Origin: Armatimonadota bacterium
GTDB taxonomy: Bacteria; Sysuimicrobiota; Sysuimicrobiia; Sysuimicrobiales; Kaftiobacteriaceae
Direction of reading: 5' to 3'
NCBI GenBank assembly: GCA_031081675.1
Contig: JAVHLZ010000008.1
Coordinates: 5,001-47,006, forward strand
DNA length: 42,006 nucleotides
Shown: positions 49 through 10,471 of the stretch, piece after piece
How positions within the stretch are numbered: the first letter of the stretch is position 1
How the letters are laid out: every line of letters starts with the position of its first letter
Made by a program: the position numbers and the translations under genes
Notes under the pieces: model-generated
What the model was told of the DNA's origin: nothing
Database searches by the model: none
The model's input: the letters and a program-made list of their open reading frames with translations, nothing else

Positions 49-592
49 GTTCCAAGCTAGTACGGGCGCACGGTGGATGCCTTGGCGCCAAGGGCCGATG
101 AAGGACGCTGTCGGCGGCGAAAGGGCCGGGGAGGTGCCGAGCAACCGTCGATCCGGCCGTCTCCGAATGGGGAAACCCCCCGCGGGTCATACCGCGGGAC
201 CCACCGCTGAATCCATAGGCGGTGTGGAGGGCACCCCGGGAACTGAAACATCTTAGTACCGGGAGGAAGAGAAATCAACCGAGATTCCCCTAGTAGTGGC
301 GAGCGAACGGGGAACAGCCCAAACCGCGCGGGCGCGGAAGCCCGCAGGCGTTGTCCGCGCGGGGTTGCAGGGCGCCATCGGGCCGGGCTGCGGACCGGCC
401 GGGAAGTGAGCAATCCTCGCCGTAGCCGAACTGTCCTGGAACGGCAGGCGATACAGGGTGACAGCCCCGTAGGCGACACGGCGAGGACTTCCTGGGTGGC
501 GTTCCTGAGTACCACGGGACACGAGGAATCCCGTGGGAAGCCGGGAGGACCACCTTCCAAGGCTAAACACCCTTGGCGACCGATAGTGCACG

Positions 593-623
<31 letters not shown>

Positions 624-1243
624 GGGAGGGGAGTGAAATAGAACCTGAAACCGTGTGCCCACAATCAGTCGGAGGGCTATGCCGATCCTTCGGGATCGGA
701 ATGCCTGACGGCGTGCCTATTGAAGAATGAGCCGGTGAGTTGTCGCGTGTGGCGAGCCTAAGGCCGGCGACGGCCGGAGGCGGAGGGAAACCGAGTCTGA
801 ACAGGGCGCACCCCTGTTGGGGCCCCCGGTCCGCCGCGAGGCGGGCCGGGGTGGAGTCGCACGCGGCAGACCCGAAACCGGGTGAGCTACCCCTGGCCAG
901 GGTGAAGCGGAGTTAACCCTCCGCGGAGGCCCGCACCCGTTGGTGTTGAAAAACCATGGGATGAGCTGGGGGTAGGGGTGATATGCCAACCGAACCCGGA
1001 GATAGCTGGTTCTCCCCGAAAGGCATTGAGGTGCCGCCTCGGCGCCGAGCCGCGCGGTGGTAGAGCTCTGGATGGGCTAGGGCGGGAGGACCCGTACCGA
1101 ACCCAACCAAACTTCGAATGCCGCGCGGTGCTCGCCGGGAGTGAGTCCGTGAGGGATAAGCTTCATGGACGAGAGGGGAACAACCCAGACCGCCAGCTAA
1201 GGTCCCCAAATGGTGGCTAAGTGGGAAAGGAAGTGGCACCGCC

Positions 1244-1281
<38 letters not shown>

Positions 1282-2047
1282 TAAAGAGTGCGTAACAGCT
1301 CACTGGTCGAGTGGTGCTGCGCCGAAAATTCAACGGGGCTCAAGCCGCCTACCGAAGCTGCGGATCCGGTGCGGGTGTCGTCCCGCGCCGGGTGGTAGGG
1401 GAGCGTTCCGCGCCAGGGTGAAGGCAGACCGGAAGGACTGCTGGACGAGGCGGAAGTGCGACTGCCGGCATGAGTAGCGAAAAGACAGGTGAGAATCCTG
1501 TCCGCCGTAAGGCCAAGGATTCTTACGGAAGGTTCGTCCGCGTAAGGTTAGGCGGGACCTAAGGCGAGGCCGACAGGCGTAGCCGATGGACAGCCGGTCG
1601 ACATTCCGGCCCCGCTCCGTACCCGTTATCGAGCCACGGGGGGACGCAGGAGGGTAGGCCTACCGGGTGCTGGTCGTCCCGGGTTAAGCGGGTAGGCGGG
1701 GGATCTAGGCAAATCCGGATCCCCGTTAACGCCGAGACGCGAACACGAGCCCGAGCGCATGCGAGGGCGAAGTGGCTGAGCCCACACTGACGAGAAAAGC
1801 CTCGTGGTGAGGGTGCGGGGCGCCCGTACCGGAAACCGACACAGGTGGCCAGGCACGCAACGTGCCAAGGCGCGCGAGAGAACTCTCGTCAAGGAACTCG
1901 GCAAAATGACCCCGTAACCTCGGGAGAAGGGGTGCCCTGGTAGGGTGACCGCGCGCAGCGGGAGCCCGAAGGGGTCGCAGAGAATAGGCTCAGCCGACTG
2001 TTTAACAAAAACACAGGTCTCTGCTAAGCCGCAAGGCGACGTATAGG

Positions 2048-2078
<31 letters not shown>

Positions 2079-2122
2079 AGGGAGGGGTTAGTCCGGGGGC
2101 GACCCCGGGCGACGCCCCAAAC

Positions 2123-2159
<37 letters not shown>

Positions 2160-2826
2160 AATCCCACGCTACCGGGATGGCCGTTGGAAAATCCGGCTAT
2201 ATGCTGGGACGGCTGTGGATGTCATGGTACCGAGGAGGTGACAACCCATGACTGCAGCCTATCAGCAGGAAAGGCTGTCTGCTACCGAAGCGCAGCGATG
2301 GTTCCTCGCCGGTTTCATCGAAGGCGAGGGCTCCGTCACGGTGTCCATCAAGGAGGATCCGACGGCGCAGTTCGGGTATTACGTGGATCCCGAGTTCCTT
2401 CTCTACCAGCATCGGGAGTACCCGCAGATGCTCGAGCTGGCGCGGCGGATCTTCGGCACGGGTCGCATCCGTCCCAAGCCCGGCAACGAGCGGGTATGGG
2501 AGTTTGCGATCACGAGCCGGCGGAGCCTGGCGGAAAAGGTGGTGCCCTTCCTGCGCAAGTACATGGTGTACTCTCCCCGGCGCGAGATCTACGAGCGATT
2601 CTGCGCTATCGTGGAGGCCATGGAACGCAAGGAGCACCGCACGCCGGACGGGTTGGCGCGTATCGTCGAGCAGGCGTACGCGTTGAACCCCGCTGCCAAG
2701 GGCACGGCCCGGAAGCGGGCCGTGTCGGCGGTAGTAGGCAGAATCCTCAGAGACTATACGCCGGACCCGCGATCAGGCGGGAAGAGATAGTCCGTCCTGC
2801 ATGGCGACATGCAGATTAACACCGAG
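2160..2826 (+). mobile_element. Group I intron in 23S rRNA at the U1923 site (L1923)
   Basis: The conserved helix 69 sequence TAACTATAACGGTCCTAAGG is split after TAACGGT (exon ends at 2159) and resumes as CCTAAGG at 2827. Counting along helix 69, the last 5'-exon base equals E. coli U1923, the site also used by the Chlamydomonas I-CeuI intron. Group I hallmarks are visible. P1 pairs exon AACGGU (2154-2159) with guide GCCGUU (2180-2185), placing the U-G wobble at the 5' splice site. P7 pairs GACUAU (2752-2757) with AUAGUC (2787-2792). P8 pairs 2766-2770 with 2777-2781. A P9 hairpin at 2797-2814 has a GCGA loop. The last intron base is G (2826). A short P2-like hairpin lies at 2192-2208. P3, P4 and P6 were not resolved by eye. 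The intron carries a homing endonuclease gene. Confidence 0.93.
2248..2790 (+). CDS. LAGLIDADG homing endonuclease encoded in the 23S intron
   Basis: This 180-residue protein has a single LAGLIDADG motif, LAGFIEGEG at residues 20-28, in which the acidic residues near its end (E25/E27) would bind the catalytic metal. One motif implies a homodimer, as in I-CreI and I-CeuI. It is predicted to cut intronless 23S genes at the TAACGGT/CCTAAGG region and so drive homing of the intron. The ATG at 2248 has a strong ribosome-binding site, GAGGAGGTG at 2232-2240, which would allow translation from the precursor or excised intron. That site lies in the loop of a short UGUCA/UGACA hairpin (2220-2243). The last 13 codons overlap the P7 and P8 strands of the ribozyme core, which constrains the C-terminus (residues about 168-180). 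The frame is intact, which suggests a recent or active element. The cut site itself is inferred from position, not shown. Confidence 0.9.
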   Translation: MTAAYQQERLSATEAQRWFLAGFIEGEGSVTVSIKEDPTAQFGYYVDPEFLLYQHREYPQMLELARRIFGTGRIRPKPGNERVWEFAITSRRSLAEKVVPFLRKYMVYSPRREIYERFCAIVEAMERKEHRTPDGLARIVEQAYALNPAAKGTARKRAVSAVVGRILRDYTPDPRSGGKR

Positions 2827-2881
<55 letters not shown>

Positions 2882-3133
2882 CGAGCTGAGCGCTGTCTCG
2901 ACGAGAGACTCGGCGAAGTTGTGCGGCCTGTGAAGACACAGGCTACCCGCAGCTGGACGGAAAGACCCCGTGAAGCTTTACTGCAGCTTGTCATTGGATT
3001 TGGTCTTACCATGCAGAGGATAGGTGGGAGGCTGAGAAGCCGGGGCTCCGGCCTCGGTGGAGCCGCCCTTGGAATACCACCCTTGGCAAGGCTAAGTCCT
3101 AACCGGGGACCTCACCGGTTTCCGGGACAGTGG

Positions 3134-3170
<37 letters not shown>

Positions 3171-3382
3171 CGGTAACGGAGGCGCCCAAAGGTCCCCTCA
3201 GCACGGTTGGAAACCGTGCGGCGAGTGTAAGGGCATAAGGGGGCTTGACTGTGAGGCCGACAAGCCGAGCAGGGACGAAAGTCGGGCCTAGTGATCCTAC
3301 GGCGGCAAGTGGAAGCGCCGTGGCTTAACGGATAAAAGCTACTCCGGGGATAACAGGCTGATCTCCCCCAATAGTCCACATA

Positions 3383-3431
<49 letters not shown>

Positions 3432-3435
3432 CAGT

Positions 3436-3472
<37 letters not shown>

Positions 3473-3477
3473 TACGT

Positions 3478-3520
<43 letters not shown>

Positions 3521-3638
3521 CTGCGGGCGCAGGTGGCTTGAGGGGAGCTGCTCCTAGTACGAGAGGACCGGAGTGGACGGACCTCTGGCGTACCGGTTGT
3601 CCTGCCAAGGGCACGCGCCGGGTACCTATGTCCGGACG

Positions 3639-3671
<33 letters not shown>

Positions 3672-3802
3672 CACCCCAAGATGAGGCCACCCACCGGGTC
3701 AACCGGGTAAGCCCCCAGGAAGACGACCTGGTTGATAGGCCGGAGGTGTAAGCGCCGCAAGGCGTTGAGCTGACCGGTACTAATCGGGCGAGGGCTTGAT
3801 CA

Positions 3803-3834
3803 CCGCTTTAGGAGTAGCTGTGTGGAGCCTGCAC
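3803..3834 (+). other. 3' arm of pre-23S processing stem
   Basis: This arm pairs with 17-48 as described for the 5' arm. The mature 23S 3' end falls immediately before it. Confidence 0.85.
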
Positions 3835-3929: not shown

Positions 3930-4047
3930 TCCCGGTGGCCATGCCGGAGGGGCCACACCCGTTCCCATTCCGAACACGGTCGTTAAGCCCTCCAGGGCCG
4001 ATGGTACTGCACTGGCAACGGTGTGGGAGAGTAGGTCGCTGCCGGGA
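3930..4047 (+). rRNA. rrf: 5S ribosomal RNA
   Basis: The sequence contains the conserved CACACCCGTTCCCATTCCGA (3954-3973) and ends with GGGAGAGTAGGTCGCTGCC. The terminal helix pairs UCCCGGU at 3930-3936 with GCCGGGA at 4041-4047, giving a 118-nt RNA of normal 5S length. It is the last gene of this rRNA operon and is followed eight bases later by an intrinsic terminator. Confidence 0.95.
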
Positions 4048-9499: not shown

Positions 9500-10471
9500 A
9501 TGGACGAGCCCGCGCACGTTCCGGTCCTGCTGGAGGAGACGATCCGGTGGCTGCAGCCCCGCCCCGGGGGCGTCTACGTGGACGCCACGGTGGGCACCGG
9601 CGGCCACGCCGAGGCCATCCTGGAACGCATCGGCCCCGGCGGGCTGCTGGTGGGGATTGACCGGGACGGGGACGCCCTGGAGCTGGCCGCCCGCCGGCTG
9701 GCCCGGTTCGGGAGCGCGGTGGTGCTGGTGCAAGAGACCTATGCGGCCATCAAAGAGGTTCTGCGCGCCCAGGGGCTGGAGCGGGTGGATGGGGTGGTGT
9801 TCGACCTGGGCGTTTCCTGGCTGCAGCTGAGCCGGGCCGAGCGCGGGTTTTCGTTCGCGCTGCCGGGCCCCCTGGACATGCGCATGGACCGGCGGCAGCG
9901 CACTACGGCGGCGGATCTGGTCAACAGCCTGCCCGAACAGGCGCTGGCGGATCTGCTGTGGCGTTACGGCGAGGAGCGGTGGGCGCGGCGGATCGCCCGG
10001 GCCGTTGTGCGGGCGCGGCCCCTGCGGACCACCGACGAGCTGGCCCGGGTGGTCCGGCAGGCCATCCCGCGGAAGGCGTGGCCGCGGGCCATCGACCCGG
10101 CGACGCGGACGTTTCAGGCGCTGCGCATTGCGGTGAACGACGAGTTGACGCACCTGCAGAAAGCCATTCCCGATGCGGCGGAGGTACTCCGGGAGGCAGG
10201 GCGACTCTGCGCCATTACCTTCCACTCCCTGGAGGACCGAACCATCAAACACACCTTCCTGCGCCTCTCCCGTGGGTGCACCTGTCCTCCCGGGGCCTCC
10301 GCCTGCACCTGTGGGGGAAAGCGGTGGCTGCGCATTCTCACGCGCCGGCCGGTCACCCCCACCGCCGAGGAGATCGCCCGCAACCCCCGCGCCCGGAGCG
10401 CCAAGCTGCGGGTGGCGGAGAGGATCGCCGATGCAAACGCGATGACCGCTGGACGCGAGCGGGAGGGCTGA
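9500..10471 (+). CDS. rsmH: 16S rRNA (cytosine(1402)-N(4))-methyltransferase RsmH
   Basis: This 323-residue enzyme N4-methylates C1402 of 16S rRNA in the decoding centre using S-adenosylmethionine. Family motifs are present in order: HVPVLLEETIRWL at the start, SAM-binding DATVGTGGHAEAIL at 28-41, DLGVSWLQL, RGFSF...DMRMD, TRTFQALRIAVNDEL, and ITFHSLEDRTIK. A cysteine-bearing CTCPPGASACTCG segment and the C-terminal NPRARSAKLRVAERI complete it. The ATG at 9500 follows GGGGCAGGG. It is the second gene of the cluster, in the usual position. A 289-bp repeat-bearing gap separates it from ftsL, wider than other gaps in the cluster. Confidence 0.97.
   Translation: MDEPAHVPVLLEETIRWLQPRPGGVYVDATVGTGGHAEAILERIGPGGLLVGIDRDGDALELAARRLARFGSAVVLVQETYAAIKEVLRAQGLERVDGVVFDLGVSWLQLSRAERGFSFALPGPLDMRMDRRQRTTAADLVNSLPEQALADLLWRYGEERWARRIARAVVRARPLRTTDELARVVRQAIPRKAWPRAIDPATRTFQALRIAVNDELTHLQKAIPDAAEVLREAGRLCAITFHSLEDRTIKHTFLRLSRGCTCPPGASACTCGGKRWLRILTRRPVTPTAEEIARNPRARSAKLRVAERIADANAMTAGREREG

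Follow-up and report, generated by a model that had tools for sequence, protein, structure and literature searches.

We compared the element described below with the intron of I-CeuI, which we take to lie in the chloroplast LSU rRNA gene of Chlamydomonas eugametos at site L1923 and whose endonuclease presumably has E66 and Q93 as catalytic residues. The available part of PMC11270868 gives the host organelle of I-CeuI as mitochondrial. Introns at L1923 have already been published for archaea: in Table 1 of PMC6125680, a source available to us in part, 9 of the 39 listed introns are LSU/1923 group I introns of subtype IB4, and 21 of the 39 have LAGLIDADG ORFs, all sites taken together. For bacteria, the LAGLIDADG rows in the accessible part of PMC1995217 are confined to L1917, L1931, L1951 and L2593. 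The 23S insertion sequences of CPR bacteria are described in the part of PMC11270868 at hand as group I introns coding for proteins of about 180 aa with a single LAGLIDADG_1 domain; the same text reports that I-ShaI cuts its own site and dimerises, and it names 1917, 1931, 1952, 2593, 2604 and 2657 as the positions rich in LAGLIDADG_1. A bacterial L1923 intron was not found by name in the open-licence literature, the coverage of which was partial and makes this weak evidence of absence.

We analysed a window of 42,006 nucleotides, the whole stretch of DNA considered here, from the assembly of an Armatimonadota bacterium, in which a 23S rRNA gene is interrupted at L1923 (Table 1). The interrupting segment resembles the I-CeuI intron in its site and in its single-motif LAGLIDADG protein, which over 95 aa shares 45% identity with the I-CeuI fragment, has I-CeuI as its top fold match and aligns with it at the catalytic residues. 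It differs in having a bacterial host, in the N-terminus, which is longer in I-CeuI (the match begins at chain residue 40), and in that the first and last residues of the window protein are encoded by the ribozyme core. The archaeal LSU/1923 introns, compared by description only from part of PMC6125680, share the site and are group I IB4 introns but have archaeal hosts. The bacterial 23S introns in the seen part of PMC1995217 (654-774 nt, with an ORF running through the core at L1917) are of the same kind but occupy other sites, and the proteins of the CPR introns and I-ShaI are of the same type as that of the window, with 1923 absent among the positions named in the available text of PMC11270868.

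From its sequence, the segment would almost certainly be a self-splicing group I intron that doubles as a mobile element. It probably belongs to subgroup IB4, since the archaeal introns at LSU/1923 are IB4 (PMC6125680, available part). In the RNA, the ribozyme would fold via P1 and a P3-P8/P4-P6 core, an external G would cut after U1923, and U1923 would then be joined to C1924, restoring the 23S rRNA. In the DNA, the single-motif LAGLIDADG protein, acting as a homodimer, would cut the I-CeuI-type site of 23S genes lacking the intron, and the intron would be copied in during repair from the intron-bearing copy. We infer splicing, dimerisation, cleavage and homing for this element.

The Rfam model LSU_rRNA_bacteria matched the plus strand across 49-3803 with 2588.5 bits (model positions 1-2925), with the insert inside the match, and a search of the window with Rfam placed the 5S rRNA gene downstream at 3931-4047. 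Alignment to the E. coli 23S gene (L031) identified 2159 as U1923 and 2827 as C1924, so that the insertion falls exactly after the U1923 equivalent, as the earlier note on this DNA had stated. The intron is present in a single copy in the host assembly, and the 3' exon also gave one match only; an unspliced product would therefore probably be harmful. A long inverted repeat, found by eye, flanks the gene (31-50, AGCTACTCCTAAAGCGG, and 3803-3821, CCGCTTTAGGAGTAGCT) and corresponds to the stem at which pre-23S rRNA is usually processed. On the contig, the 5 kb upstream of the window read N, so that the operon is visible from the 23S gene onwards.

Since the host assembly is a 50-contig draft, assembly or binning might have brought in an intron-bearing 23S gene from another organism in the sample. 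We regard such an artefact as extremely unlikely: the window gene is closest to those of same-family relatives, being 89-96% identical by segment to that of G004 (L021) and 91% identical over 300 bases to those of G003 and G004, and the 93-kb contig continues with protein genes, among them an ORF at 9500-10471 that by eye resembles rsmH. Because of this closeness to the 23S genes of its family, the gene very likely belongs to the host itself.

Table 1 Features of the interrupted 23S rRNA gene, the intron and its endonuclease gene in the window
Feature	Position	Strand	Details and basis
23S rRNA gene, interrupted	49-3803	+	Exons 49-2159 and 2827-3803
Group I intron, site L1923	2160-2826	+	667 nt, final base G2826
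P1 5' strand (5' exon)	2153-2159	+	UAACGGU, ends in the splice-site U; sequence, minimum-energy fold
P1 loop, proposed P10 partner of 3' exon GGUAGC	2168-2173	+	GCUACC; pairing inferred
P1 3' strand, internal guide	2180-2186	+	GCCGUUG, G2180·U2159; sequence, minimum-energy fold
P3 5' strand	2192-2197	+	UCCGGC; sequence, homologue pair count
P4 5' strand	2202-2206	+	UGCUG; sequence, minimum-energy fold
P5 5' strand	2211-2216	+	GGCUGU, partner 2254-2259; by eye
P5a 5' strand	2221-2227	+	GUCAUGG, partner 2246-2252 (contains the start codon); by eye
Shine-Dalgarno sequence of the endonuclease gene	2233-2240	+	AGGAGGTG; sequence
LAGLIDADG homing endonuclease gene	2248-2790	+	180 aa, TAG stop in P7 3' strand
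P5 3' strand	2254-2259	+	GCAGCC, also endonuclease-coding; by eye
P4 3' strand	2263-2267	+	CAGCA, also coding; sequence
P6 5' strand	2268-2269	+	GG, partner CC 2745-2746; by eye, CAGCAGGAAAG and AATCC conserved
P6a 5' strand	2275-2286	+	Twelve pairs with 2730-2741, counted by eye
P6a 3' strand	2730-2741	+	Partner of 2275-2286
P7 5' strand	2750-2756	+	Bulged A2751, also coding; pair counts, covariance model
P3 3' strand	2760-2765	+	GCCGGA, also coding; sequence, homologue pair count
P8 5' strand	2766-2770	+	Five pairs, partner 2777-2781, also coding; sequence, pair counts
P7 3' strand	2788-2793	+	UAGUCC, TAG stop codon at 2788-2790; pair counts, covariance model
P9 hairpin	2797-2814	+	Seven pairs, GCGA tetraloop; sequence, pair counts
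3' exon, proposed P10 partner	2832-2837	+	GGUAGC, E. coli 1929-1934; sequence

The segment has a complete group I core: P1 with its U·G pair (U2159·G2180) and P3-P9 are all pairable, and the last base is G2826, as for group I splice sites. The paired strands were read by eye, and P7-P9 were counted across homologues as well. The guide GGC[CT]GT is present in the 17 distinct homologue rows, and CAGCAGGAAAG, which covers the P4 3' strand and the P6 region, occurs in all 22 homologues examined.

In the window, the match to the Rfam group I model RF00028 was limited to the P9 side and, at 16.4 bits, stayed below the cut-off of 50. Two L1923 introns lacking an ORF (L063 and L098) matched positions 1-253 of this model above the cut-off, with 74.7 and 69.4 bits; the partial match in the window is thus probably explained by the ORF, which splits L6. 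We also used a covariance model of P7-P8-P9 (R1) built from 17 homologues, with the window excluded and L063, L085 and L130 left out for their long P8 inserts. On the whole window, this model gave one match only (E up to 10), which identifies the 3' domain at the intron with 82.8 bits and an E-value of 1.1e-28. On ten other loci, matches were confined to the two with L1923 introns, L108 (70.8 bits) and L035 (37.0 bits and a weak second match of 14.4 bits), and none was found in any of the eight control loci.

Pair counts point in the same direction. In 21 sequences, 97.9% of the 378 cells of P7, P8 and P9 are paired, versus 76.4% in shuffles, and pairing falls to 34-44% when the partners are slid by 1-3 columns. 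Compensatory, two-sided changes were found in 13 of the 18 pairs (9.0 in shuffles). One of the five measures gave no excess: further pair types numbered 29 versus 27.9 in shuffles, 201 of 500 of which were as high. P7, which has the bulged A and the G-C pair that binds guanosine, is paired in 100% of the cells of the 21 rows, with compensatory changes in two of its six pairs. For P3, which forms the P3-P8 pseudoknot, 120 of 126 cells are paired, a count lowered by one mis-anchored row (L079), and the best of 1000 shuffles reached 114. L035 and L108, though matched by model R1, are left out of the pair counts (S-element not located). By these sequence measures, the group I core at 2160-2826 is far beyond chance. 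The splice sites, P1 U·G, P7, P8, P9 and terminal G described in the earlier note were all located. Of the covariance searches, the one with the Rfam group I model, as called for in that note, stayed below its cut-off, and the one with model R1 found the 3' domain.

This evidence also bears on the idea that the segment is an intervening sequence of the RNase III type, excised with no joining of the ends, which would leave the 23S rRNA in fragments. Fragmented 23S rRNAs with intervening sequences do occur in bacteria (PMC11270868, available part), but the segment has a complete, covarying group I core and the correct splice-site signals, and fragmentation just after H69, beside the functional centre of the ribosome, would be expected to be costly; we give this explanation next to no weight.

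The endonuclease gene of this group I intron contains no internal stop codons and is preceded by a Shine-Dalgarno sequence, in line with the earlier description of a full-length frame with a ribosome-binding site; AGGAGGT was also present in 9 of the 17 distinct homologue rows. Pfam assigned the product to LAGLIDADG_1 (E-value 6e-16, 59.6 bits versus a cut-off of 23.1) with one domain at residues 20-122; NCBIfam returned no family. A single motif in 180 aa is within the expectation for I-CeuI-type enzymes of about 180-220 aa. In a sequence search of the PDB with the whole protein, the best match was the two-domain 4lq0 (2.8e-37; I-CeuI, 2.8e-22). I-CeuI ranked first with residues 30-108, which follow the motif helix (3.9e-13), and not first with longer and N-terminal parts. 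AlphaFold2 predicted the LAGLIDADG alpha-beta-beta-alpha-beta-beta-alpha fold with a mean pLDDT of 85 and both ends poorly defined, and a Foldseek search with this model returned I-CeuI at the top (E-value 5.6e-13) and I-TnaI second. E27 and Q54 are invariant in all 17 rows and align with the catalytic residues of I-CeuI; the solved I-CeuI chain has R at the position matching Q54. The protein is therefore, as judged from its predicted structure, an intact single-motif LAGLIDADG endonuclease with an I-CeuI-like fold and with the catalytic acid and glutamine kept. The homologue-based covariance model, Pfam and the fold match thus agree with the first reading of the locus as a group I intron with an intact LAGLIDADG gene at the I-CeuI site.

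The endonuclease gene is under purifying selection: dN/dS against the closest homologue (L077) was 0.12 over 136 codons outside the overlap with the core, at a dS of 1.66, and 0.05-0.22 in five other pairs, with dS values near saturation; the pair L144/L126 was saturated and gave no ratio. The value of 0.12 reflects past selection and not current activity. Purifying selection also speaks for a rival reading, in which the intron is spliced but its protein no longer homes: the gene would be maintained for a maturase role in ribozyme folding, mobility having been lost. This possibility also gains from Thermotoga neapolitana, in which a related protein of a 23S intron has maturase-like activity (PMC3984707, available part), and from the other genomes of the host phylum with a readable site, all of which are empty at L1923. 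Nevertheless, both catalytic residues (E27 and Q54) are intact and do not vary among the 17 rows, and the patchy distribution over phyla, with the nearest relatives at the same site, argues for past homing, so that we consider loss of mobility improbable.

To learn how widespread such introns are, we scanned a collection in which 84,980 species are represented by one genome each. The pattern was the bacterial site with any base except C after it, and at least 118 stretches matched. In 22 of the matches listed, an insert of 287-776 nt lies exactly at L1923 and is followed by the usual 3' exon. Three further loci (L101, L107 and L123) carry an L1923 insert of 229-751 nt and, eight exon bases on, a second insert at L1931; these three entered only the final tally and the P1-loop test below. 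Altogether, at least 25 L1923 inserts are complete at both ends. This number is a lower bound, because introns whose first base is C and sites that differ in the H69 letters escape the scan. Two loci (L112 and L138) have the same guide sequence but end before the intron does, and L122 was flagged but left out, as it does not resemble a 23S gene. A LAGLIDADG ORF is present in 18 of the 22 (16 found by motif, L071 and L097 added by hand), and among the matches listed these 18 loci bear 13 bacterial phylum labels, besides one archaeal-titled and one unclassified contig. All 16 titled homologues of the 22 are MAGs, for which misbinned rRNA contigs are possible. Among the loci listed by the scan, the 23S gene nearest to that of the window is 76.6% identical to it.

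L1923 introns are thus scattered across many bacterial phyla and are not rare in bacteria. The rarity in bacterial 23S genes that the earlier note had assumed did not hold up, given at least 25 complete L1923 inserts and matches of the 3'-domain model in 12 of 43 genomes of the host phylum. The window adds a clean, intact bacterial example at a site that introns occupy in bacteria of many phyla. Both standard 23S annotation and I-CeuI genome mapping presume that this site is uninterrupted. The bacterial set is also diverse enough for the origin of the algal I-CeuI introns to be addressed, and it provides natural I-CeuI relatives for enzyme work.

Some loci of the scan deserve separate mention. 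The Crenarchaeota-titled contig (L097) has a site of the bacterial type, its endonuclease clusters with those of Ignavibacteria, and it is probably misbinned. L035 (reverse strand, 2676-2746) has an L1923 insert with a weak 3' domain (37 bits) and no LAGLIDADG ORF and looks like a decaying intron. In seven loci (L036, L046, L073, L084, L095, L116 and L131), the natural 23S gene has no insert, and C1924 is replaced by A or G.

Among the matches listed, the closest endonuclease is that of L077, from an Acidobacteria MAG whose intron shares the insertion site (72% identity, support 100/99); eleven other L1923 proteins share 50-66% identity with the window protein and a further six 31-39%. The identity to the L2604 proteins of the same phylum is 30-34%, or up to 36% under another scoring. 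In the tree, 13 of the 19 L1923 rows (window included) form a clade of 14 rows with the I-CeuI fragment, the sole algal row compared (support 94/93), and the L2604 rows form one separate group (97/98). This tree groups the window with I-CeuI and apart from L2604. Six L1923 rows fall outside the I-CeuI clade, and there are four label changes on the tree; since the L1923 rows are not one clade, the tree gives no single origin for the site family. For this tree, an L1951 fragment (L020) was left out and the N-terminal extension of L071 was trimmed.

Relatedness of proteins from one site in different phyla is characteristic of homing accompanied by horizontal transfer. We consider a horizontal gain of the element from another bacterium most likely, as suggested by the 72% identity to the Acidobacteria L1923 protein versus 30-34% to the same-phylum L2604 proteins. 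The branch of I-CeuI itself is long and joins that of a Melainabacteria row (92/68), so that its exact placement is unsure. With I-CeuI nested inside the bacterial L1923 clade and the closest relative bacterial, no algal donor is indicated, and the transfer route via algae raised at first is not favoured.

We studied the overlap of ribozyme and gene as well. The endonuclease frame starts in P5a, runs through P4, P6, P7, P3 and P8 and stops in P7; a similar overlap is reported for the Synechococcus L1917 intron in the available part of PMC1995217. The C-terminal letters of the proteins track the P7 RNA: a U-A pair goes with RDY and a C-G pair with RGH or RGP, and RDC is found where the next P7 pair is G-C. 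Moreover, the core strand is read in two frames. Among the matches listed, 14 of the 18 L1923 ORFs (window included) read it as ILR... and four as SSET... (L048, L067, L094 and L097), and the ORF of L059 ends before this strand. The overlap is a convenient natural case of one sequence under two constraints.

The loop of P1 contains GCTAC in 13 of 26 L1923 introns (window included), versus 0.34 expected from shuffled loops, a chance figure that is too small because the rows are related; it is the most frequent 5-mer among these loops. GCTAC can pair with GUAGC of the 3' exon (1930-1934), starting six bases past the splice site, and on this complementarity we propose that the P1-loop GCUAC and the 3' exon could form an offset P10. 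A motif test that tolerated wobble pairs (18 of 27 observed versus 9.3 expected) was too lax, and the exact GCTAC test was adopted for this reason. A broader reading, which we offer tentatively and hold to be rather doubtful as a whole, is that of an old, pan-bacterial mobile L1923 lineage that would be the source of the green-algal I-CeuI introns. Its ribozyme and endonuclease would form one dual-coding unit, with P7 pairing dictating the C-terminal RDY, RGH, RGP or RDC and one strand used in two frames by clade, and the P1-loop GCUAC would serve as offset P10.

Within the host phylum (43 genomes), an exact-word search found the window alone occupied at L1923, and 10 of the 43 show an uninterrupted site. 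The earlier suggestion of recent gain or active homing is no more than consistent with this single occupied genome, the ten uninterrupted ones and the dN/dS of 0.12, the last of which speaks for past selection and not for current activity. The 12 genomes matched by the 3'-domain model (window included) have up to three matches each. In 9 of 11 loci from the phylum and one outgroup genome, the 23S inserts could be mapped to L1917, L1931, L1951, L2593 or L2604. In L022 (G030) and L026 (G013), there are up to three group I introns per 23S gene (L1917, L1931 and L2604); some of them are ORF-less, and the L1931 intron of L026 has a shortened LAGLIDADG ORF of 119 aa.

The H69 pair 1909:1921 (window 2145 and 2157) is C-G in E. 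coli as well as in the window. In 6 of the 10 phylum genomes with an uninterrupted site it is U-A (two genomes) or G-C (four), both sides being changed each time, and the phylum genomes with an L1917 or L1923 intron (the window, G013 and G030) have kept the canonical letters. A swap of this pair in the homing target could protect the site, though the numbers are small. As to co-conversion of the flanking exon, the window has C-G at 1909:1921 versus U-A in G003 and G004, the 23S gene being readable there in 3 of 10 genomes of the family (window included).
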